A stretch of 46,809 bases of DNA, taken from assembly GCA_900318115.1 (NCBI GenBank), contig ONJJ01000027.1, forward strand, positions 1-46,809, in the 5' to 3' direction. Below, one piece after another: positions 5,921 through 24,345 of this stretch. This DNA comes from an uncultured Prevotellaceae bacterium. GTDB taxonomy: Bacteria; Bacteroidota; Bacteroidia; Bacteroidales; Bacteroidaceae. The notes beneath the pieces are model-generated. The model had not been told where the DNA came from and did no database searches. It worked only from the letters and a program-made list of their open reading frames with translations. Both the position numbers and the translations under genes were made by a program. Numbering within the stretch: the first letter of the stretch is position 1; each line of letters starts with the position of its first letter.

Positions 5921-8524
5921 ATGAAGAAGCTAATCCTTTTACTGCTGACAATGCTGTCGGCTGCGCAGCTTTCTGCACAGGACGGCGACAACACCGAACG
6001 TCTCTGGTATGACAAGCCGGCCACCATCTGGCTTGAGGCTCTGCCCATTGGCAACGGCCGACTGGGCGGAATGGTCTATGGTGACCCAGAGACGGACGAG
6101 ATTCAGTTGAACGAAGACTCGTTCTGGAGCGGCGGGCCTCACAATAACAACAGCACCTCTGCAAAGTCGAATCTGGAGCAGGTGCGCAACCTGATATTTG
6201 AAGGCAAGGAGCAGGAGGCCGAGGACCTGATTAACCAGAAGTTCATCAAGGGTCCTCACGGCATGAAGTATCTGACGCTGGGCAGTCTGAAGATGACCCA
6301 CGCGGGCATCACCACGTCGAAGGTGACCAACTACGTGCGGGAACTGGATCTGCAGACGGCCTTGTCGCGAGTGACCTTTGAGCAGGACGGGCACCACTAC
6401 CAGCGCACCGCCTTCGCCTCAATGCCCGATAGCGTGATAGTCATCCGTCTGGAGGCCGACACCCTTTCTACCGTGACGCTGAAACATTCCGCCCCCTACT
6501 CCACATCCTACAGCAAGAATGCTGACGGCTGCATAGCCACCATTCAGGGCGTTGGCCACGAAGGCATAGATGCCAAGTTAAAAGCCGCCCTGCGCTACTT
6601 CGTTGTGAGTGATGGCGAGGTGACTTATCAGGCGGGTGGCGTGGTAAAGGTGACGGACTACACGACAGCCACCGTCTTTATCTCTGCCGCCACCAACTAC
6701 GTGAATTACAAGGACGTGACAGGCAAGCAGGCGGCGAAGAGCCTGAACTGGCTGAAGGCTGCCCGCGAGAAAGACTATGCCACGCTCTTGGCCCGTCACT
6801 TGGAGGCCTATCAACAGCAGTACCAGCGCGTACGCCTTACCCTGCCTTCGGTGGCCGCCAACGCCAAGCTGACCACCGAGAAGCGCCTGCAGAAGTTTTC
6901 GGGCAGCAGCGACTGGGGCATGGTGGCATTGCTGTTCAACTATGGCCGCTATCTGCTTATATCGTCGTCGCAGGCTGGCGGACAGCCCGCCAATCTGCAA
7001 GGACTGTGGAACGACAAGCAGGATGCACCCTGGGATTCGAAGTACACCATCAACATCAATGCCGAGATGAACTACTGGCCCTCGGAGGTGTGTAACCTCA
7101 CAGAGACCAACGTGCCCTTCTTCCAGATGATTCGCGATTTGAGCGTTACGGGTGCCACGACAGCCAAAACCATGTATGGCTGCGGTGGCTGGGTGGCTCA
7201 CCACAACACCGACCTCTGGCGCATTGCCGGTCCTGTTGACGGCGCCTTCTGGGGCATGTATCCCAACGGTGGTGCCTGGCTGGCCACCCATCTGTGGCAG
7301 CACTATCTTTATACGGGCGACAAGGAGTTCCTGCGCGAGTGGTATCCGGTCATCAAGGGTACGGCCGACTTCTACCTCGACTTCATGGTGCCGCATCCCA
7401 ACTACAACAACTGGCTCGTCGTGGCGCCCTCCGTGAGTCCTGAGCAGGGTCCCGCCGGCAAGTCGACGTCCGTCACGGCTGGCTGTACGATGGATAACCA
7501 GATTGTGTTCGATGCTCTTTCGAACACGCTGAGAGCGGCAGAGATTTTGGATGAGGACGCAGCATACATCAGCCGTCTCACCTCAGCCCTGGAGCAGATT
7601 CCTCCCATGCAGATAGGAAGTAGGAAGCAGTTGCAGGAGTGGCTCGTTGACGCCGACGGCAGCGACATGCACCACCGCCATATCTCACATCTCTACGGCC
7701 TGTTTCCCTCGAACCAGATTTCGCCTTACAGCCACAACGAACTCTTTGCCGCTGCCAAGCAGACACTCACCGACCGCGGCGACGAAGCTACCGGCTGGAG
7801 TCTCGGCTGGAAGATCTGTTTCTGGGCACGAATGCTCGACGGCGCCCACGCCCTCACCATTCTGAAGAATATGCTGAAGCTGCTACCGTCGGATGATGTC
7901 ACATCACAATATCCCAACGGCCGCACCTATCCTAATTTGTTCGACGCCCACCCGCCCTTCCAGATTGACGGTAACTTCGGCGCTACGGCTGGCATCGCAG
8001 AAATGTTGTTGCAGAGTCACGACGGCGCCGTACATCTGTTGCCCGCCCTGCCTGCTTCGTGGAAGACCGGAGCCATCACCGGCCTGCGCGCCCGTGGAGG
8101 CTTTGAGGTCGATGAGGAGTGGAGTGGCGGCAAACTCCAAACGGCACATGTGCGCTCTACTATCGGCGGCACACTGCGAGTGCGCTCTTACGTAGAACTC
8201 GAAGGCGAGGGCCTGCAGCCAGCCGAGGGCGAATGTCCGAATGCGCTCTTTGCGCCTGCGCAGATTAAGGAGCCGCTGTTGGCCAAGTCGCTCACCTCGA
8301 AGCCCAAGTTTTCGGTGAAAAAGGTGTATGAATACGACCTGCAGACTGTGCCTGGCGGCGAGTACCACCTTTACAGACAGGGAACGACGGGCGTCGGCGC
8401 TGTGCGACTGAATAATGAAAAATTAAAAATGAACAATGAGGTGTATGACTTGCAGGGGCGCCGAGTGGCGAATCCGCAACACGGAATATATATCAAGAAC
8501 GGACAAAAGATTTTTGTGAAATGA
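5921..8524 (+). CDS. GH95 alpha-L-fucosidase (secreted)
   Basis: 867 aa. A signal peptide ([20 protein letters not shown]) decides the start at 5921 over the longer open frame. The N-terminal domain begins [22 protein letters not shown], typical of family 95. In the (alpha/alpha)6 barrel the [11 protein letters not shown] motif (about residue 378) carries the Asn residues of the asparagine-assisted mechanism, SPE at about 505 fits the general acid, and [11 protein letters not shown] (about 680) the Asp base. Family 95 inverting enzymes release alpha-1,2-linked fucose (some act on L-galactose) from host glycans or plant xyloglucan. The C-terminus has a VYDLQGRRV...GIYIKNGQK secretion or anchoring tail. 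An AT-rich repeat (8411-8440) is spliced in frame just before this tail. The stop overlaps the next start (ATGA). Confidence 0.93.
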
Positions 8525-8957: not shown

Positions 8958-8985
8958 AAAAAGTAAGCCCCCTCAATCAAATAAC

Positions 8986-9081
8986 GTCGGCTCAGGAGGT
9001 GATACTTCCGTCTCTACTCCGCCGACGAGGAAGGGAGTGTATATTAGGGATGGGAAGAAGGTGGTGGTGAAGTGTGAATAG
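8986..9081 (+). pseudogene. Orphan secretion-tail fragment (GVYIRDGRKVVVK)
   Basis: In frame from 8986 the sequence encodes a Ser/Gly/Thr-rich linker, then RKGVYIRDGRKVVVKCE and a stop at 9079-9081. This is the same kind of C-terminal tail as on the GH95 and PL11 proteins here (GIYI..GQK). There is no start or domain in front. It is probably the far end of the decayed GH43 gene or of another lost secreted enzyme. Confidence 0.6.
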
Positions 9082-17016: not shown

Positions 17017-17306
17017 CATAAAGTTTTCCAGTATTGATGCGCTTTGCCGTTAAAATTATGTAAGTAGTGCAAAATCTGCCTCGAACCAAACAGATTTCGA
17101 CCGGGATTTGCATATTTCGTGCCCTGCAAGGCCAATGGTTTGTCCCACATAGGGAATCGCTGCTTTCTTTTCGCTCTGGATTAAATCGAAATTCGGTCAT
17201 TAGCCCGACGCCTTCGATATTGAAGCAACCTAACTGCTTAAAACAAATACTTATCTGACATAAATCCTAATGACGGATTTGGGTTAAACAGACAATGGAG
17301 CAGCAA

Positions 17307-17341
17307 CGAAAAAGCCCTGACTGACGTTCGTCAATCAGGGC
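17307..17341 (-). terminator. Intrinsic terminator, originally of tRNA-Phe
   Basis: Stem GCCCTGACTGAC/GTCAATCAGGGC (17314-17325 with 17330-17341) with one mismatch and loop GTTC. On the minus strand it is followed by TTTTTCG. It lies 8 bp beyond attL, in the orientation of tRNA-Phe, so before integration it would have ended the tRNA-Phe transcript. The element now separates the two by 6.9 kb. Confidence 0.75.
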
Positions 17342-17349
17342 CTTTCTTC

Positions 17350-17377
17350 TTGCGGAGTGGTGTCACCAGGAATCGAA
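17350..17377. other. attL: 28-bp direct repeat of the tRNA-Phe 3' end
   Basis: Identical to 24265-24292. It contains GGTGTCACCAGGAATCGAA, i.e. the acceptor strand and part of the T-arm of tRNA-Phe without the rest of the gene. The flank toward the element continues AAACTTGATTTTT, which recurs near the other end (24202-24214). Confidence 0.9.
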
Positions 17378-17474
17378 AACTTGATTTTTTCGCATTTTCG
17401 CAGAAAAGTCAAAAATGGCAAATGGTTGATTATTAGGCGTTTCTTAATTTTGATAGTTAAATAAGATTAAAAAA

Positions 17475-17504
17475 GGTGGTAGAAAGGTGGTAGAAAGGTG
17501 GTAG
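17475..17504 (+). repeat. Three GGTGGTAG direct repeats, candidate integrase arm sites (left)
   Basis: Copies at 17475-17482, 17486-17493 and 17497-17504, exactly 11 bp apart (one helical turn). Two more copies in the same orientation and with the same 11-bp period lie at the other end (24182-24200). Position, spacing and presence at both ends fit arm-type binding sites for the integrase or its accessory factor. The block also covers the -33 region of the integrase promoter, so binding could repress int. Confidence 0.6.
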
Positions 17505-17520
17505 ATAAAAATCTATTCAG

Positions 17521-17528
17521 TACCTTTG
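17521..17528 (+). promoter_or_regulatory. -7 box of the integrase promoter
   Basis: TACCTTTG, 28 bp before the integrase ATG. The expected -33 position falls in the third GGTGGTAG copy rather than on a TTG, so the promoter may need an activator or be blocked by occupied arm sites. Confidence 0.6.
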
Positions 17529-17556
17529 CCGCGAAATCAAAATTAAGACCTCCAAA

Positions 17557-18972
17557 ATGCGAAAATTCTTCATCAAAACAACCCAAAGCGGGGGAGAGGC
17601 TCCGCTGTACACCCGAATAAGAAAGAAGTCCCCGTATGTAGACTTTTGGATAAATACGCATATAAGCGTAAACGTCACGGCGTGGCGGAAGGCTTACGAA
17701 GATTTGCAGCTGTACGCCAAGACCACCAGATGCAAGGACGTGGAACACCTGGCACAAGATATTGACCGCGCGATTGATGATGCGCTGACCCGCGACTTCA
17801 CGCGCGAGAGTGTTCAGGAGGTGGTGGACGATATTGTTTTCCGAGAAGAGAGGGAACTGCGACGGCAGCGGGAAGAGGAAGCGCTGAGGCAGCTGCAAGA
17901 AGAGCAAGAGGCGGCGAGAATAGCCAAGGCCAAGGCAGACGCTGACGTGCGCGCTTACCTCGCCAACCTTATCCGGGGAATGAAGGACGGCTCCGCGCGA
18001 ATAGAGGGCAGGGGACGGAACCAGGGCGAGCGCTACACCCCGAACACGATTAAAATGTGGAACACCCTCGCGGGCATAATAGAGCGCTTCTATCAGGTGC
18101 GCCCCTTCACATGGGAGGATATAGACAAGCGTTTCGCCGTCCGCTTCCGCGTATGGCTGGAGAAGGAGGGCTATATGAAGAAGAGCGCAAATAAGTACAT
18201 GAGCCAATTTGTCGCGCTGATAAACCGCGCCCTCCGGGACGGGAAGCACGGGAATAGGGAGGCCGTGAACTTCTTCGCACGTCCAGCCGTGGAGGAAGAC
18301 GAAAAAGCCACCGAAATTTATCTCACAGCGGACGAACTGAATGCCCTCTACCAAATGCCCCTGAAGGGAGAGAAAGCACTTGTGAGGGACATTTTCATTG
18401 TAGGCTGCTGCACTTGCCAGCGGGTCAGCGACTACACCCGTATAGGAAAAGAGAACTTTGTGACCACCGCTAGGGGCACGCGTGTGGTAAAGATACGGCA
18501 GCAGAAGACGCGGAACTTTGTTACTATCCCGATCCTCGACGATAAGCTGACATCTATCATGGAGCGCTACGACTACCGCCTGCCAAAGCTGCCCACGAAC
18601 TTCGATGTTGTCCTGAATCGTTATATAAAGGAGATTTGCAAGGAACTCTCTGAGACAGTCCCCAGCCTGGCGGAAGAGCTGCCCACCATCCTCACCATGA
18701 AGGAGAGGGAGATGGAGAAACGTGGGGAGGCCTGCTGGCCGCGCGATGAATATAACCGCCCCTTGAAACATCGCTACGAATTAGTCACCTCGCACACAGC
18801 TCGACGCACGGGAATCACCCACCTCTATCTCTCCGGGAAGTTTGATGTTTTCCAGATGATGCACGTCAGCGGGCACAAGGAAGCCAAGACCTTCCGCGAC
18901 TATATCAAGTTAAGCGGCGATGAGATGGCGGAAGAGATAGCGGAGAAGATGGGCAGTAATAACCTATTTTGA
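17557..18972 (+). CDS. int: Tyrosine recombinase (site-specific integrase)
   Basis: 471 aa. It catalyses integration and excision at the tRNA-Phe attachment site. N-terminal arm-binding region (about 1-60), a charged coiled coil (about 95-130, rich in R/E/Q), a SAM-like core-binding domain (about 155-235) and the catalytic domain (about 253-455). Catalytic residues are visible: Arg289 (CTCQRVSDYTR), Lys317 (QQKTRN), His413 and Arg416 (SHTARRTG), His440 (SGHKEAKTF) and the nucleophile Tyr449 (RDYI). Length and the coiled-coil insert are typical of Bacteroidetes phage-type integrases. It lies 180 bp inside attL. The next gene starts 17 bp after its stop. Confidence 0.93.
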   Translation: MRKFFIKTTQSGGEAPLYTRIRKKSPYVDFWINTHISVNVTAWRKAYEDLQLYAKTTRCKDVEHLAQDIDRAIDDALTRDFTRESVQEVVDDIVFREERELRRQREEEALRQLQEEQEAARIAKAKADADVRAYLANLIRGMKDGSARIEGRGRNQGERYTPNTIKMWNTLAGIIERFYQVRPFTWEDIDKRFAVRFRVWLEKEGYMKKSANKYMSQFVALINRALRDGKHGNREAVNFFARPAVEEDEKATEIYLTADELNALYQMPLKGEKALVRDIFIVGCCTCQRVSDYTRIGKENFVTTARGTRVVKIRQQKTRNFVTIPILDDKLTSIMERYDYRLPKLPTNFDVVLNRYIKEICKELSETVPSLAEELPTILTMKEREMEKRGEACWPRDEYNRPLKHRYELVTSHTARRTGITHLYLSGKFDVFQMMHVSGHKEAKTFRDYIKLSGDEMAEEIAEKMGSNNLF

Positions 18973-18989
18973 GAAGAAAGGAGGCAACA

Positions 18990-19751
18990 ATGAAAGAGTC
19001 TGAAGTGATAAGGGCTATGGCCAAAGTAGAGGCTTTCCTGGGTGTAGTGAAGCTCGTTTTGGGAGAGGACGGAGATGCACGCGAAACCGCGAAGGCGCTC
19101 AAACGCCCATGTGAGCAAGGTGAGCACGCGGTGGTGTGTGCAAAGGCGCTGTGCGAGTATGTGGCGGACACGAAAGACACCAAGCGGCTTCAGCGACTTC
19201 GTGAGCTGGGAGAAATGGCAGAGAAGATCATGATGGGAGAGCATGGCACCTGGCCTTTGTCATCACCTCTGCACGGCTGGCAGTCTCGCTTTAATCTGCT
19301 AAATATGTATGTAGAGGAAATACAGCAGAACATCGCATTTTGGGTGCAGAATATGAGGGAAGACACGCAAGGCGGGGAAGCCTCAGCAGCAGACGCACAA
19401 GGCGGGGAAGCCTCAACTGCAGACGCACAAGGCGGGGAAGCCTCAGCACCTCAGAGCGTGCGCGTAATAAAAGGCGAGGAAATAAAAGCGATGTTCATGC
19501 CTGATCGCGAGAGCCAGAAGAAGGCGGAGGCTTTCGTGGCAAACCTCGAGAAGCTGGCGAACAACGGCGAGAAGGACAGGGCTCTCGCCATGTGCGCTGC
19601 GACGATGCACGTCCGTCTCTCACTCAAGAGCCTCCTCCCCAAATACCAAGCATGGGCGCGGCTGTGGCGTGACCTCATGCCCTTGATAGGAGCGAAGGTG
19701 AAGGGATACGTGAACAAGCGGGAGAAGCTGTTTAAGGAGGCGCAGAAATAG
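18990..19751 (+). CDS. Unknown element protein with 10-residue Gly/Ala repeats
   Basis: 253 aa, not recognised. A clear Shine-Dalgarno (AAAGGAGG, about 18976-18983) six bases before the ATG sets the start and is unlike host genes. The N-terminal half is helical. The middle has three copies of a 10-residue repeat (DAQGGEASxA, about 19364-19449 in DNA) forming a flexible linker. The C-terminal half is again helical and basic (KAEAFVANLEKL..., ending KREKLFKEAQK). It is cotranscribed with int. A directionality or DNA-packing role is possible but unsupported. Confidence 0.7.
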   Translation: MKESEVIRAMAKVEAFLGVVKLVLGEDGDARETAKALKRPCEQGEHAVVCAKALCEYVADTKDTKRLQRLRELGEMAEKIMMGEHGTWPLSSPLHGWQSRFNLLNMYVEEIQQNIAFWVQNMREDTQGGEASAADAQGGEASTADAQGGEASAPQSVRVIKGEEIKAMFMPDRESQKKAEAFVANLEKLANNGEKDRALAMCAATMHVRLSLKSLLPKYQAWARLWRDLMPLIGAKVKGYVNKREKLFKEAQK

Positions 19752-19819
19752 CAAAAAAGGAACTTCCCAGGGATAAACGAAAATGTGTCCCGTACTCTTT
19801 TCTTAACATATTAAAATCC

Positions 19820-19853
19820 AAAGGGATAGCTTGCGAGGACTTGTCCCTTTTTT
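19820..19853 (+). terminator. Terminator after the int-orf2 unit
   Basis: AAAGGGA (19820-19826) pairs with TCCCTTT (19844-19850), followed by TTT, with a 17-nt loop. It lies 70 bp beyond the preceding stop. Confidence 0.55.
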
Positions 19854-19909
19854 AATTCCGTTTGATGATTTGTTGCAAGGGAGCGATGGCGGGGAGTAAA
19901 AAAAAGTAG

Positions 19910-20038
19910 TACCTTTGCACCGACAACACCGCCACGCCCCGCTCATGGCCGAAGCGGCAGAGTCCCGCCAGCACGCAGGCTGCAAGGTAGGCAATTTCGC
20001 CAAATGAGCACAGCCCTAGCGTGCTAGCCACGCAAGAC
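19910..20038 (+). promoter_or_regulatory. Promoter and structured GC-rich leader of the second element operon
   Basis: TACCTTTG (19910-19917) is a good -7 box. The following 120 nt before the ATG are GC-rich with many short inverted repeats (e.g. GCGTG-CTAGC-CACGC near 20020-20035), so a folded 5' leader is likely. The first part (GCACCGACAACACCGCCACGC) resembles the candidate small RNA at 3409-3427. It could be a conserved leader of this type of element. Confidence 0.5.
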
Positions 20039-20368
20039 ATGAGAACGACAACGTTCACACTTACCGACGGCCAACTGGCCTCACTTATGAACCTCTTTTC
20101 GCCGTTGATGGACGCTTTCGTGCAGAAAGTCGCCGACCGCGTGCGTCAGCTCCAAGAAGAGGCAAAACCGCGTTATTACTCACGGCAGGAAGTGGCCGAG
20201 CTGCTACACGTCAGCCTCCCCACAATCCACGCGATGATGAACGCTGGAGCACTGACGCCTCAGCGTTTAGGAGGCCGCGTGCTTTTCTCTGCTGCTGCTG
20301 TGGAAGAGGGAATCGCCGCAGGCACACTCAAGAAGGGAACATGGACGAAGAAAGGAGGTATAAAATGA
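20039..20368 (+). CDS. HTH_17 (excisionase/MerR-like) DNA-binding protein
   Basis: 109 aa. The C-terminal half is a classical winged-helix excisionase-type domain: RYYSRQEVAELLHVSLPTIHAMMNAGALTPQRLGGRVLFSAAAVEEGI (about 46-95). The first 45 residues form an amphipathic helix (LASLMNLFSPLMDAFVQKVADRVRQLQEE) that may dimerise. In Bacteroidetes integrative elements such proteins act as excisionase or as regulator of replication genes. The ATG at 20039 is preferred over the upstream GTG at 20021. The stop overlaps the next start (ATGA). Confidence 0.8.
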   Translation: MRTTTFTLTDGQLASLMNLFSPLMDAFVQKVADRVRQLQEEAKPRYYSRQEVAELLHVSLPTIHAMMNAGALTPQRLGGRVLFSAAAVEEGIAAGTLKKGTWTKKGGIK

Positions 20369-20586
20369 GACGCGCCACCGACATCACCGACACTGACCTC
20401 CGCGACTTCGTGGAGTGGTTCCGGCAACGATTTAAGGTGAGGCAGACCCGCCGCGAGTGGTTCACCACCTCTTTGGAGGGGCGCACAAGCGTGCCCGCGC
20501 GCGACCTGAAAGACCTCGTTAAGAGGCTGGAAGGCTTAGGTCTTGTGAGAGTGCAAAAAGATTTCGTTGAGCTGCTTAAGGTGTAG
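20365..20586 (+). CDS. Small element protein, winged-helix-like
   Basis: 73 aa. The start at 20365 is supported by AAAGGAGG at 20351-20358 and by ATGA overlap with the preceding stop; a longer in-frame ATG at 20341 is less likely. Sequence RDLKDLVKRLEGLGLVRVQKD near the end looks like the recognition helix and wing of a small winged-helix domain (VKRLEGLGLV). Probably a regulator or replication accessory factor. No known family is recognised. Confidence 0.65.
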   Translation: MRRATDITDTDLRDFVEWFRQRFKVRQTRREWFTTSLEGRTSVPARDLKDLVKRLEGLGLVRVQKDFVELLKV

Positions 20587-20589
20587 GTT

Positions 20590-21825
20590 ATGAGCAAAGA
20601 AGAAGAAATCCGCCAACAGCTGGACGACGAGCGCGAGAACGTACTAAAGTACTCACTCTTCCCGGGGGTGGGGAACGTCGCCCTTGATCCCTGCGAGATA
20701 CTAGATTTCACCAAGCCTTTCACGCCTGCCCCGTATATATTGAATATTAACGGCGCGCGCTGCCTTCAGCTGGGGAGCCTCAACGTGGTCACGGGTCAAG
20801 CGGGGCACGGGAAAACAATGTTTCTTTCGATGTGCTCTGCCGCCGTGCTATCGGGGGAGTATGGGAATATGCGTTTTGCCCTCCCGGGAGGCGAAGACAG
20901 CGGCAGCGTCCTCTACATCGATACCGAGCAAAGCGAGCCCGACACTATCGCTTTCAAGAATCGGGTGCAGACCATGAACGGCTGGCCGCTTGACGATGAT
21001 AAGCGTGCGTTCCATATTGTGCGCCTACGGGAAGAAGATGATGCAAAACAGCGCGAACTTAAAGCGTTCAAGGCTGTTATCGACTACCAGCCCACACTTG
21101 CTATAATAGACGGAGTCCTTGACCTGACCCCCGATTACAACGACCTCGCCGAAGCCACCTCTCTTGTGTTCCGACTAATGAAGCTTGCGTCTGCTTATAA
21201 TGTTTGCATTATCGACGTAAATCATCAGAACCCTCTCGCAATCAGAAACGCAAACGAAAAGATGGCCGGGCACCTCGGAAGCCTGCATGAACGAAAAGCA
21301 AACGACATCTTTGCAGTAAAACGCGTGAAGGATCCCGCAGGTGTCTTTTCATATGAGGTGTCAGACTTGAAAGGCCGTGGCCGGGCGCCTATGGAAAATT
21401 GGTCTTTCGTTATGCAGCAGCGCACGCCTGAGATTTGGGTGCCCGCGCCCGTCTTCGCGCCAACTATCGCCGAAAATGGACACGGCGACCGCTACACGCC
21501 CGAAAAGATTTCAGCGTGGCTGAAAGAATATGGCGGCACGCTGACGTGGCCAGCCACCTTCCGGGACGTCCGTGCCCTTTTCGCGAAAGCTGGCGTTGCA
21601 GAAGATGGCGACCAAAAGGAATGTGTGGATAAGGCGATAAATCGAGGCTTCTTGCTGCGTCAGACGCCTGCTGAAATGCCAGCGAAGCAAAAGAGTGCGC
21701 GACTTTACTTAAATCCTGCCCACTTTCCGGCGTCCTCGCTCGCTGATGAGGCTACCCCCGGCACGGCACCAGCAGATCCCTCGCTCCCCTTCCCGCCTCC
21801 GATTGACCGCGCCCCGCCCTTCTAA
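20590..21825 (+). CDS. RecA-fold ATPase (AAA_25/RepA-like helicase)
   Basis: 411 aa. Walker A GQAGHGKT (69-76) and Walker B LAIIDGVLD (about 172-180), with DTEQ between and a DVNHQN sensor-like loop, fit the AAA_25/RepA hexameric helicase group used for replication of plasmids and integrative elements. The C-terminal 120 residues include a short winged-helix-like segment (EKISAWLKEYGGTLTWP..). The last 30 residues (DEATPGTAPADPSLP) come from a 47-bp repeat that recurs downstream (22109-22155), so the natural end has been extended by repeat DNA. It starts 3 bp after the previous stop. It probably allows autonomous replication after excision. Confidence 0.8.
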   Translation: MSKEEEIRQQLDDERENVLKYSLFPGVGNVALDPCEILDFTKPFTPAPYILNINGARCLQLGSLNVVTGQAGHGKTMFLSMCSAAVLSGEYGNMRFALPGGEDSGSVLYIDTEQSEPDTIAFKNRVQTMNGWPLDDDKRAFHIVRLREEDDAKQRELKAFKAVIDYQPTLAIIDGVLDLTPDYNDLAEATSLVFRLMKLASAYNVCIIDVNHQNPLAIRNANEKMAGHLGSLHERKANDIFAVKRVKDPAGVFSYEVSDLKGRGRAPMENWSFVMQQRTPEIWVPAPVFAPTIAENGHGDRYTPEKISAWLKEYGGTLTWPATFRDVRALFAKAGVAEDGDQKECVDKAINRGFLLRQTPAEMPAKQKSARLYLNPAHFPASSLADEATPGTAPADPSLPFPPPIDRAPPF

Positions 21826-22250
21826 GAGCTCTATTTTTTCTCGCGTGCGCGCGTGCGTGCGCGTGTAGATATATATAAATATATATCTTCATATCTTTGC
21901 CACAGCAGGCAGTTTTCGGCATTCAGAGGCTGGCGCCTGAGGGCTTCAACTATCCCTCCCGCAAGGTCACTGGGCGCGCGACGGCGACCCTGCCTGGCTC
22001 TCCCTGCTGCGAGGCGCGAGGGGCGACCACTGCCTGCCTCTTCCTGCGAGATACCAGACGCTCTCGACGTGGAGCAACACCGCTCCGGCAACCCGCCAAT
22101 CCTTCTCTCTGATGAGGCTACCCCCGGCACGGCACCAGCAGATCCCTCGCTCCCCCTTCCCTGCTGCGAGGCGCGACGGCAACCCTGCCTGCCTCTCCCT
22201 GCTGAGAGGAGCGAGGGGCGACCACTGCCTGCCTCTCCCTGCGAGATACC
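21743..22250. repeat. GC-rich repeat block: two 47-bp and two 79-bp repeats
   Basis: A 47-bp sequence at 21743-21789 (inside the ATPase gene 3' end) is repeated exactly at 22109-22155. A 79-bp sequence at 21977-22055 is repeated with about six differences at 22172-22250. The order is 47-79-47-79, and within the 79-mer CTGCCTGCCTCTCCCTGC-like pieces repeat again. Open frames on both strands here are repeat-driven. Next to a RepA-like gene the block might act as a replication origin or as a recombination hotspot. Confidence 0.7.
21841..21899 (+). promoter_or_regulatory. CG-alternating tract, AT palindrome and -7 box
   Basis: A GCGTGCGCGCGTGCGTGCGC tract (from about 21844) runs into an AT palindrome (AGATATATA..TATATATCT, about 21867-21888) and TATCTTTG (21892-21899). 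This is the promoter-like signal for the repeat block and possibly for the gene at 22433. The abrupt GC/AT junction may melt easily, as at an origin. Confidence 0.45.
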
Positions 22251-22432
22251 CCCGCGGACGAGTTTTTTTCGCCCGTACCCTCTTCTTCCCAAATCCACTT
22301 CGACTGATGCGCGTTAAGAGTCCTAAATTTCAAATTCTCGTTTTTCTTACGCCCGCTGCGGAGGCTTCCACGGATGAAACGCCTATCTTTTAAGACAATC
22401 CCCCACGATAAACATTTATAAATTTTTGAAAA
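22251..22432. other. Leader before the Cys-rich gene; nothing recognised
   Basis: With 21900-22250 this makes about 530 bp without a gene. The last 50 bp before the ATG at 22433 are AT-rich, as is usual for Bacteroidetes translation starts. Confidence 0.4.
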
Positions 22433-22786
22433 ATGCCAAAAAGAAAATTTGTTCAAATCCAGCTGCCGGCCATGAAGCCTGACTGCTGCAATGAGTGCCC
22501 CCTGCTGGGGCTAGTACCCAAACACCTTCGCCAACCAGGCTCTAAAGAGACGCACGTCTGCTGCGGCACGTTGGATGCTCTCAATGCCCGTATCGCGCGC
22601 GTGAGAGCCAGCGAACGAGACAAACGCCACCCCCTCCGCCGCCCCTGCGACTCGCGCTGGGACGCCTGGCAGACCCTCCCTCTTCGTCGTTTAGGAATAA
22701 GCACCGAAGTCTTCACTGAGTGCCGCGTGCCCTTGGAGATGCAGAGTCAGCTCCAAATCAAGTTCCACAATCGCGGAAGGAAATAG
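22433..22786 (+). CDS. Small Cys-rich element protein (CCNEC..VCCG)
   Basis: 117 aa, unknown. The N-terminal half has Cys pairs (DCCNECPLLG and HVCCG) that could bind zinc or an iron-sulfur cluster. The second half has HPLRRPCDSRWDAWQ and ends in a basic segment. Similar-looking proteins occur in other Bacteroidetes integrative elements; I know no assigned function. An upstream TTATAAATTTTTGAAAA stretch suits host-type initiation. A strong hairpin terminator follows (22908-22950). Confidence 0.65.
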   Translation: MPKRKFVQIQLPAMKPDCCNECPLLGLVPKHLRQPGSKETHVCCGTLDALNARIARVRASERDKRHPLRRPCDSRWDAWQTLPLRRLGISTEVFTECRVPLEMQSQLQIKFHNRGRK

Positions 22787-22907
22787 TTTTTGCTTATTTG
22801 TACTGACCCGTGCCTGCTTTTATGCTGAATTATGCCTAAATTATACTGGATTGTCTTAATTTTCTTAATTTCGGTTAAATAGAGAGGCCTCGCCAAGTCA
22901 AGTTAGT

Positions 22908-22950
22908 CTGGGAGAGAGTATATAAATACACTCTCCCAGCTTCCTTTTTT
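22908..22950 (+). terminator. Strong intrinsic terminator
   Basis: CTGGGAGAG.. (22908-22921) pairs with ATACACTCTCCCAG (22926-22939), one mismatch, loop ATAA, then CTTCCTTTTTT. It ends the transcript of the Cys-rich gene. Confidence 0.8.
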
Positions 22951-23048
22951 CGCTTATGCCTGCCAGCCCTCGCTTTCGGCAACCTTTCCGCGGGTAATAC
23001 TCCCTTCCCTTTGTCTTCGGATAGTGTAACCACCCCCTTCTTTCAGTT

Positions 23049-23438
23049 ATGGCAAGACAAAAAACTTCTCATGCTTATGAGCTGGAAATTATCAAAATGA
23101 TTAAAGCTAGAAACGGCAACTTTGACGAATGGCTGAGACCTCAGCTGGAAGCCACCGCCGCAAATCGCGTTATGCTCGCGAAGATCCAAGCGGAGCTGGA
23201 GGCCGAAGCCTCCCTGCTGCTGACCCTTCCCGGCTCGATGGGGCAGCAAAAGCGTGATGCACACCCCTTGCTCACGCACTACGACAAGCTCCAGCGCACG
23301 CTCATCCTCCAATATGCAGCCCTCGGACTGAACTACAACACCACACCCGCCAAGGTCACGGAGTCCACGAGGAAAGACGCAGAGAGCGACCCCCTCATGA
23401 AGTTCTATAATGCGATACACACCACCCCTGAGTTATGA
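23049..23438 (+). CDS. Small protein resembling P27-type phage small terminase subunits
   Basis: 129 aa. A basic helical start (MARQKTSHAYELEIIKMIKARN) is followed by HPLLTHYDKLQRTLILQYAALGLNYNTTPAKVTE, which resembles the C-terminal helix region of P27-like terminase small subunits and related proteins found in Bacteroidetes elements. The similarity is recognised by eye and is weak. If real, it would suggest packaging by a helper phage. The stop overlaps the next start (ATGA, 23435-23438), so the two proteins may work together. Confidence 0.5.
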   Translation: MARQKTSHAYELEIIKMIKARNGNFDEWLRPQLEATAANRVMLAKIQAELEAEASLLLTLPGSMGQQKRDAHPLLTHYDKLQRTLILQYAALGLNYNTTPAKVTESTRKDAESDPLMKFYNAIHTTPEL

Positions 23439-24103
23439 ACCAGCAGACCTCAAAAGTTCAGGTGGTCACCACTAAAGTAACCGCCGACACAAAAGAGAAA
23501 CTGAACCGCCTCGCGGCTCGATTTGGCATATCCAGGTACCAGCTCTTCCAACTCTTCGCCCTTGTGTGCGTCCGCTTGTGGGACGCACCCAGCTCCCTCA
23601 CCGATGAACACCGCGTTATGCTGGAGGAGTTTCTGCACACTCTCGCCGCTACGCAGGGCGAGAGCTTCAACCCCCTCACCATCCTCACTCGCCAGCAGCA
23701 CCAGGTGGCCAGCGCCATCCTTTTCGTCCGAACGCCTGCGGCGGGGGAACCTCAATTGCTGGCAATCTCCCCAGACGGGAAAGGAGGATGGCGGGAAGAC
23801 TACAACTTAGACACCATGCTCACTCATTTCCTCGCCTCCGCCGACCCACGCCTGCTTCATACCCTGCAGGCCGAAATGAAGAACCGCCAGCAGATCTCCA
23901 TCGTCGGAACCCTCCGCGAAATCGTCCAGCAGCAGCAGCCCTCCGCCGAAGAAGTGATGCAGGCCGACATCGCGGAGCTCTTTTCTGATATATGCACCCG
24001 CTTCGGCGAGCGCCCAGCGGAGGACGTCTTCTATAAACGAAAGCTAAATAGCGGCGACTACACCACCCACACCCAGCCGCGAAAGAAGCACGTCCGGGCT
24101 TAA
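23435..24103 (+). CDS. Element protein with ribbon-helix-helix-like N-terminus
   Basis: 222 aa. The N-terminal VVTTKVTADTKEKLNRLAARFGISRYQLFQLF fits a ribbon-helix-helix DNA-binding fold (strand, then two helices with the I-S-R-Y-Q turn). The rest is helical and unassigned (ILFVRTPAAGEPQLLAI is a beta hairpin-like part), with a basic C-terminal tail (RKLNSGDYTTHTQPRKKHVR). In mobilisable elements such proteins stand next to a relaxase as MobC, but no relaxase is here. It may be a remnant of a mobilisation module, a regulator, or the partner of the terminase-like protein. Confidence 0.6.
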   Translation: MNQQTSKVQVVTTKVTADTKEKLNRLAARFGISRYQLFQLFALVCVRLWDAPSSLTDEHRVMLEEFLHTLAATQGESFNPLTILTRQQHQVASAILFVRTPAAGEPQLLAISPDGKGGWREDYNLDTMLTHFLASADPRLLHTLQAEMKNRQQISIVGTLREIVQQQQPSAEEVMQADIAELFSDICTRFGERPAEDVFYKRKLNSGDYTTHTQPRKKHVRA

Positions 24104-24181
24104 TCATAATAATGAGCCCCTTCTTCATGGTTACGAACCACGCTCCACCGACCTCCAAGGTAGGGCGTTTTGTTTTGGTGA

Positions 24182-24200
24182 GGTGGTAGAAAGGTGGTAG
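24182..24200 (+). repeat. Two GGTGGTAG direct repeats, candidate arm sites (right)
   Basis: Copies at 24182-24189 and 24193-24200, with the same orientation and 11-bp period as the three copies near attL. AAACTTGATTTTT follows directly (24202-24214) as it does beside attL. Confidence 0.6.
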
Positions 24201-24216
24201 AAAAACTTGATTTTTG

Positions 24217-24265
24217 CAAAAAGAAGAAATCCCTAAACGCTTGACTTTGTAGCGCTTAGGGATTT
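24217..24265 (-). terminator. Element-encoded replacement terminator for tRNA-Phe
   Basis: AAATCCCTAAACGCT (24227-24241) pairs with AGCGCTTAGGGATTT (24251-24265) with one G-T wobble. On the minus strand a CTTCTTTTT run follows. It abuts attR on the element side and points with tRNA-Phe, so the element restores transcription termination that its insertion displaced. Confidence 0.75.
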
Positions 24266-24292
24266 TGCGGAGTGGTGTCACCAGGAATCGAA
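24265..24292. other. attR: 28-bp direct repeat inside tRNA-Phe
   Basis: Identical to attL (17350-17377). It covers the 3' acceptor strand and most of the T loop of tRNA-Phe plus 8 bp downstream. Confidence 0.9.
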
Positions 24293-24345
24293 CCGGGGAC
24301 ACAAGGATTTTCAGTCCTTTGCTCTACCAACTGAGCTATGACACC
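24273..24345 (-). tRNA. tRNA-Phe (GAA)
   Basis: 73 nt on the minus strand, CCA not encoded. Acceptor GGTGTCA/TGACACC, D-arm GCTCAGTTGGTAGAGC, anticodon stem AAGGA/TCCTT with loop CTGAAAA (anticodon GAA), T-loop TTCGATT. The T-stem CCCGG/CCTGG contains one C-T mismatch (51-63). The 3' part lies in the attachment core of the integrative element. The promoter is at 24439-24409. Confidence 0.95.

Follow-up and report, generated by a model that had tools for sequence, protein, structure and literature searches.

A compact tRNA-Phe element and its relatives as probable miniature cos-type phage satellites of Bacteroidales

Introduction

A contig of 46,809 nucleotides from an uncultured Prevotellaceae bacterium (ONJJ01000027.1, assembly GCA_900318115.1; the whole stretch is called the window below) carries at 17350-24292 an integrated element of 6.9 kb, which an earlier note on this DNA had described as apparently intact, devoid of visible transfer or particle genes, and perhaps a phage satellite of Bacteroidetes. 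How could so small an element move between cells? We conclude that it is very likely a miniature phage satellite of the cos (cohesive-end) type, and that it probably travels in particles made by another virus. The satellite idea is well supported by comparative analysis: a small terminase could be identified, a cos-like site lies beside it, an empty attachment (att) site exists in a relative, compact relatives lack a detected large terminase, and no relaxase model was matched. Taken with these relatives, the element is best read as one member of a Bacteroidales family of cos-type phage satellites 6.1-7.0 kb long.

Integration and gene content

The element contains the following features (coordinates in the window, strand, description):

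17350-17377, no strand: att repeat, left copy; perfect 28-bp repeat, left flank continuous with tRNA-Phe in contig L177
17474-17509, no strand: paired short repeats (GGTGGTAGAAA type), possible Int arm sites; repeat search
17557-18972, plus: tyrosine integrase (Int), 471 aa
18990-19751, plus: orf2, 253 aa; no Pfam match at E<=1
20039-20368, plus: excisionase-like HTH_17 protein (Xis), 109 aa
20341-20586, plus: orf81; weak Pfam match
20590-21825, plus: AAA_25 RepA/DnaB-like ATPase; AAA_25 E=3.5e-9
21739-22250, no strand: direct repeats, partly copies of the ATPase gene 3' end; repeat search
22286-22353, plus: cos-like site, noncoding; phage-only profile, 30.6 bits; predicted cut near 22304-22307
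22433-22786, plus: orf117, conserved Cys-containing phage protein adjoining the cos-like site; 61-65% identity to phage copies
23049-23438, plus: terminase small subunit (TerS), 129 aa
23435-24103, plus: 'RHH' protein, 222 aa; no Pfam match, label provisional
24181-24205, no strand: paired short repeats, right end; repeat search
24265-24292, no strand: att repeat, right copy, inside the tRNA-Phe 3' end; repeat and tRNA search
24272-24345, minus: tRNA-Phe, target gene

The perfect 28-bp direct repeats that bound the element are real att sites. The right copy reaches into the tRNA-Phe gene at its 3' end. In a relative of the same genus (genome G304, contig L177) the left flank runs through att into tRNA-Phe without a break (window 17301-17377, 88% over 77 positions), and that contig also matches the right flank (83%). 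By this alignment L177 is an unoccupied site of the kind that the earlier note had proposed to look for, and since left flank, att and tRNA-Phe are continuous there, the element has been inserted between the two halves of a once continuous site; a chance origin of the repeats is thereby ruled out. A further lead, GGTGGTAGAAAG beside tRNA-Phe in G336, held no element. In G014 (L207) a recombinase-like gene end adjoins tRNA-Phe, and other elements may use this gene too.

Int, orf2, the HTH_17 protein, orf81, the ATPase, the repeat region, orf117, TerS and RHH all lie on the plus strand. The three activities that the earlier note had named were borne out: Int matches Phage_int_SAM_5 (E=1.4e-11) and, below the cut-off of 27.1 bits, Phage_integrase (24.1 bits, E=3.4e-5), the helix-turn-helix protein matches HTH_17 (E=1.4e-9) and TIGR01764 excise (32.8 bits, above cut-off), and the RepA-like ATPase matches AAA_25 and is a probable replication protein. 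When nine element proteins were scanned against Pfam, PHROGs and NCBIfam, none matched a relaxase, capsid, portal or large terminase (TerL) model or any structural or lytic gene model, in agreement with the earlier note; HNH was not recognisable either. Thus the TerL, portal and capsid genes of a prophage and the relaxase of an integrative mobilizable element went unmatched, and what is present (its own integrase at a specific att site, and a TerS and cos-like site in common with phage) is what satellites have in general. Five of the nine proteins (orf2, orf117, TerS, RHH and orf154) have no Pfam match at E<=1. At the position of orf2 the other elements described below carry an unrelated gene of 283-316 aa.

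Paired short repeats lie inside both ends of every complete element (the window element, L148, L246 and L172); they are possible Int arm sites, a label that is our own assumption. The region 21739-22250 contains 56- and 80-bp direct repeats, one of them copying the 3' end of the ATPase gene, and is a possible origin region. Repeats of the TGAAACA type follow the AAA gene in two other elements (L172:7569-7642 and 8967-9066; L246:5038-5097) and are possibly iterons. The iteron and origin roles are likewise presumed by us.

The element encodes a phage small terminase

Taken alone, the 129-aa protein that the earlier note had called terminase-like gave a weak match to phrog_361, 'terminase small subunit' (E=0.0085), and it was its relatives and predicted fold that settled the matter. 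Homologues in prophages of the same genus sit directly upstream of TerL, and viral contigs show the recurring order AAA, primase, RHH, HNH, orf117, TerS, TerL (e.g. L084, L094, L097, L119; the HNH, TerL and primase labels were confirmed by Pfam on examples). The best match lies on contig L128 (IMGVR_UViG_3300028832_000859), with 75% identity by tblastn and 73% by alignment; tblastn against named phages gave no match. An AlphaFold model built from 46 sequences (mean pLDDT 81.9) found seven matches in BFVD at E<=0.001, all seven named terminase small subunit. In the PDB no match to the model reached E 0.001; the HK97 small terminase came seventh by E (1.1; TM 0.52/0.55), and its probability of 0.95 was the highest among the 50 PDB matches listed. 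Judged by homologues and modelled fold, the protein is a phage small terminase. The dN/dS of TerS against L128 (0.20/3.1) was saturated and left unused.

The phages around these genes vary. In L128 the large-terminase reading is split into two pieces (970-1977 and 7142-8119) ~5 kb apart, between which lie methylase-like, ParB-like and MetK-like genes (labels by eye). The spacing of orf117 and TerS is 1.7-3.5 kb in L066, L073, L074, L090, L097, L105 and L110, and a TerS-like gene precedes the AAA gene in L087 and L091. The cysteines of the element's own orf117 are at positions 19, 22, 43 and 72.

A cos-like site precedes orf117

DNA similarity to phages extends upstream of orf117 into noncoding DNA, and the site at 22286-22353, which like the paired short repeats inside the two ends goes beyond the earlier note, belongs to a family that 54 of 75 phage loci carry ahead of their terminase genes. 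To describe this family we used a profile seeded with six phage sites and iterated over the 75 loci; the final 54 sites are one per locus, include some near-duplicates and contain no compact element. The profile found one match each in L246 (45.4 bits), L148 (38.9), the whole window (30.6) and L172 (28.6). The next-best score in the eight sequences searched was 5.7 bits, and the best among 500 Markov resamplings for each of the four elements was 13.3.

Phage contigs begin or end inside this site. For 27 of 66 loci the contig starts <=1 kb upstream of orf117. A site could be scored in 15 of them, and 10 of these 15 contigs have profile position 20-22 as their first base. The other 12 have no profile match, several of them looking alike by eye; L098 and L102 have like starts and are possibly one virus. 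At the opposite end, the 39,086-bp contig L228 stops exactly at the motif end, where profile position 19 falls, after an HNH gene, and L230 ends seven bases past the motif, again after an HNH gene. HK97 is a phage that uses HNH.

The right half of the site also co-varies with TerS across 33 phages (Mantel r=0.60, p=0.001; with orf117 held, partial r=0.57, p=0.001). Its correlation with orf117 is 0.24, dropping to 0.08 (p=0.15) with TerS held; orf117 lies between the site and TerS, yet its co-variation runs only through TerS. The window's own site behaves in the same way, tracking its TerS (rho 0.65, p=5e-5) and not orf117 (0.17, p=0.33). Because phage contigs begin or end inside the site and because it co-varies with TerS, 22286-22353 is very probably a phage cos site, the right half being a putative TerS-binding cosB and the cut near 22304-22307 being predicted from the phage contig ends. 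The names cosB and cosQ are our own presumptive usage.

Compact relatives and the RHH protein

Three further genomes contain elements of the same layout, with one cos-like site each and no TerL detected. L148 (genome G399), 6.4 kb long at a tRNA-Leu with 15-bp att repeats, carries Int, orf2, Xis, AAA, cos, a broken orf117 and RHH. L246 (G020), 6.1 kb at a tRNA-Leu with 18-bp att repeats, carries Int, orf2, Xis, AAA, orf145, cos and RHH. L172 (G154) carries Int, orf2, Xis, AAA, two more genes, cos and RHH; its ends are tentative (a 13-bp repeat, no tRNA), giving ~6.9 kb. Integrases and ATPases differ between the elements, and neither the window TerS nor phage TerL has a match in L148, L172 or L246. 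A fifth genome, G315, has a partial copy at a contig start (L145), where orf117, TerS and RHH are followed by other genes.

Site-model searches recovered phages and compact elements and nothing else. Among 139 genomes of the genus there were seven matches, four in model-building loci (G000, G005, G324, G232) and three new (G020, G258, G299), so that L246 in G020 was discovered through the site itself. The search of the family, over 251 genomes, gave four: G126 was new, whereas the loci in G000, G232 and G154 had served to build the model. G399 did not come up there, being either unsampled or lost by a filter. Altogether these are nine distinct places, six of them phage loci (G005, G324, G232, G299, G258, G126) and three compact elements. 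Scanning genome contigs with the AAA query gave no new relatives, and with the A9 query returned G020 and G154 only. Relatives of Int in G273, G338, G003, G014, G253 and G282 showed no cos match where searched (L036, L037, L010). One of these loci, L036:7900-12148 in G273, is another small integrated element, whose integrase is 40% and whose Xis is 46% identical, and it has no cos match.

The 222-aa protein, which we take to be an RHH protein in spite of its lack of a Pfam match, sets the compact elements apart from the phages. In a tree the RHH proteins of the five elements fall on one side of a branch and 39 phage rows on the other (support 100/98, or 100/100 without L145). Two duplicate phage rows had been dropped; with them, and without L246, the split has support 98/98. 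The window RHH gene and the TerS stop codon overlap, an arrangement that TerL shows in phage L039; TerS and RHH are therefore probably made together.

Weighing the explanations

Several observations speak against a satellite. In the sequence comparisons no excision, induction or particle was seen. When viral contigs were scanned with Int, RHH and A9 as queries, which find close relatives only, no copy of the element turned up. A phrog_9 TerL search of the host assembly (87% complete) revealed no helper; four of 14 control genomes gave a match. A TerS match is missing from three of the four complete elements, L145 has no cos match in the 405 bp upstream of its orf117, and the window and L145 sit on long branches in the RHH tree. 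No primase match was found among the window-element proteins in the three databases, an AAA_25 protein and repeats being what is present. As for the site, five of the 15 scorable contigs begin elsewhere; among 28 loci with the left-half pattern only two end <=7 nt from the motif and five within 36 nt, most of the remainder running on past it; and the left half was absent from the far ends of 12 phage records.

Could the element instead be what deletion has left of a prophage from the same phage group, with int, AAA, cos, orf117 and TerS kept by chance? AAA, orf117, TerS and cos are indeed all phage genes or sites, and related prophage pieces are abundant in the host. A remnant would hardly be expected to have Int, Xis, AAA and the late genes intact between perfect att repeats, and we consider it improbable also because elements laid out alike, with different integrases, are present in other genera and next to other tRNA genes, and because RHH takes the position that TerL has in phages and sits on a separate branch.

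Int, HTH_17 and AAA_25 in combination resemble NBU-type mobilizable elements, and weak RHH-only matches occur in other genera, so a small conjugative hitchhiker with an unrecognised origin of transfer (oriT), RHH being the oriT-binding protein, might be imagined. The scan that yielded no relaxase match, the uselessness of a TerS and a phage cos site in conjugation, and the fact that the relatives of RHH are phage genes make this the least credible of the explanations. A resident anti-phage decoy, rarely moving and using TerS and cos to interfere with phage packaging, has only slightly more to recommend it and is very unlikely: TerS without TerL could titrate helper packaging, and interference is known for SaPIs according to excerpts of PMC5052747, but the one defence-family match is a weak one of the ATPase to mad8 (E=0.0065), and the TerS-less elements keep cos, as expected of cargo for packaging.

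A proposed cycle and its place among known satellites

For a miniature cos-type satellite we infer the following cycle. A cos phage of the orf117-TerS-TerL type would infect the cell or be induced there, whereupon Int and Xis would excise the element and the AAA protein would help to replicate it from the repeat region. The element's own TerS would bind the right half of the site (cosB), while in the TerS-less relatives the helper's TerS would recognise cos. Cleavage at cos and the filling of helper heads with element DNA would then fall to the helper's TerL and HNH, and in the recipient, after injection, Int would insert the circle at tRNA-Phe.

The cos sites of the complete elements are each closer to particular phage sites than to one another (L148 to L118/L114, L172 to L071/L042, L246 to L108/L096, the window to L096/L097), and the cos cassette includes TerS in the window and probably in G315, and lacks it in G399, G154 and G020. 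At 39.1 kb, a related phage contig that has a cos end greatly exceeds the monomer in length, so that the DNA would be packaged either as tandem multimers inside full-size heads or into small heads. That this 6-7-kb Bacteroidales lineage switches helper phage by exchanging its cos cassette, and is packed in one of these ways, is a tentative proposal that we rather doubt than believe. Hexamer packaging, calculated from phage length, was dropped, related contigs reaching 59.9 kb with none shown complete.

The tailed phages with orf117-TerS-TerL (IMG/VR and host genomes; L038-L042, L062-L141) share AAA, RHH, cos, orf117 and TerS with the element; they differ in having primase, HNH and TerL and in lying on the other side of the RHH branch. 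NBU-type Bacteroides mobilizable elements, whose gene content we presume here, differ in that the window element has no relaxase and carries TerS and a cos-like site instead. They are alike in being small integrated Bacteroidetes elements with Int (NBU1 is named in the excerpts of PMC11389934).

Among described satellites the closest in mode are the cos-SaPIs SaPIbov4 and SaPIbov5, islands of ~14 kb. As portrayed in excerpts of PMC5052747, these chromosomal islands have the helper's cos site and no structural genes and are packaged by the helper machinery; the window element, too, has a cos-like site resembling that of its possible helpers. It is half their size at 6.9 kb, belongs to another phylum and has a full TerS where SaPIbov5 retains only the 3' part of terS, the comparison being by description and not by sequence. 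PICMIs, as PMC10803314 describes them, are similarly very small (PICMI115 is 6,110 bp, packaged as an 8-mer by a headful-like route), with few excision and replication genes and none for capsid remodelling. They differ in that they adjoin fis and encode alpA together with a primase, and neither terS nor cos nor pac was found in them; the window element sits at tRNA-Phe, and no primase match completes an int-alpA-primase core. SaPIs and other PICIs of the pac type with terS, in the extract of PMC6092414, have an element-borne TerS that would work with helper TerL, but they are of ~15 kb, well above the window element, and use pac packaging, unlike the window TerS beside its cos-like site. The best reading is that the elements work like cos-SaPIs and PICMIs and are to be filed with neither, since size, site, gene set and host differ.

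Significance

No satellite family of Bacteroidales or Bacteroidetes was described in the literature searched, a scope outside which most subscription journals and preprints fell; PMC12324425 and PMC10879173, in the passages available, concern other things. If our reading is true, Bacteroidales, a dominant order of gut bacteria, have phage satellites of the cos kind, and these rank among the smallest known. The cos profile and RHH would together form a sequence signature with which to find more, and the elements with and without their own TerS would constitute a natural experiment on TerS-cosB specificity. They would also represent a phage-borne route of gene transfer in Bacteroidales.

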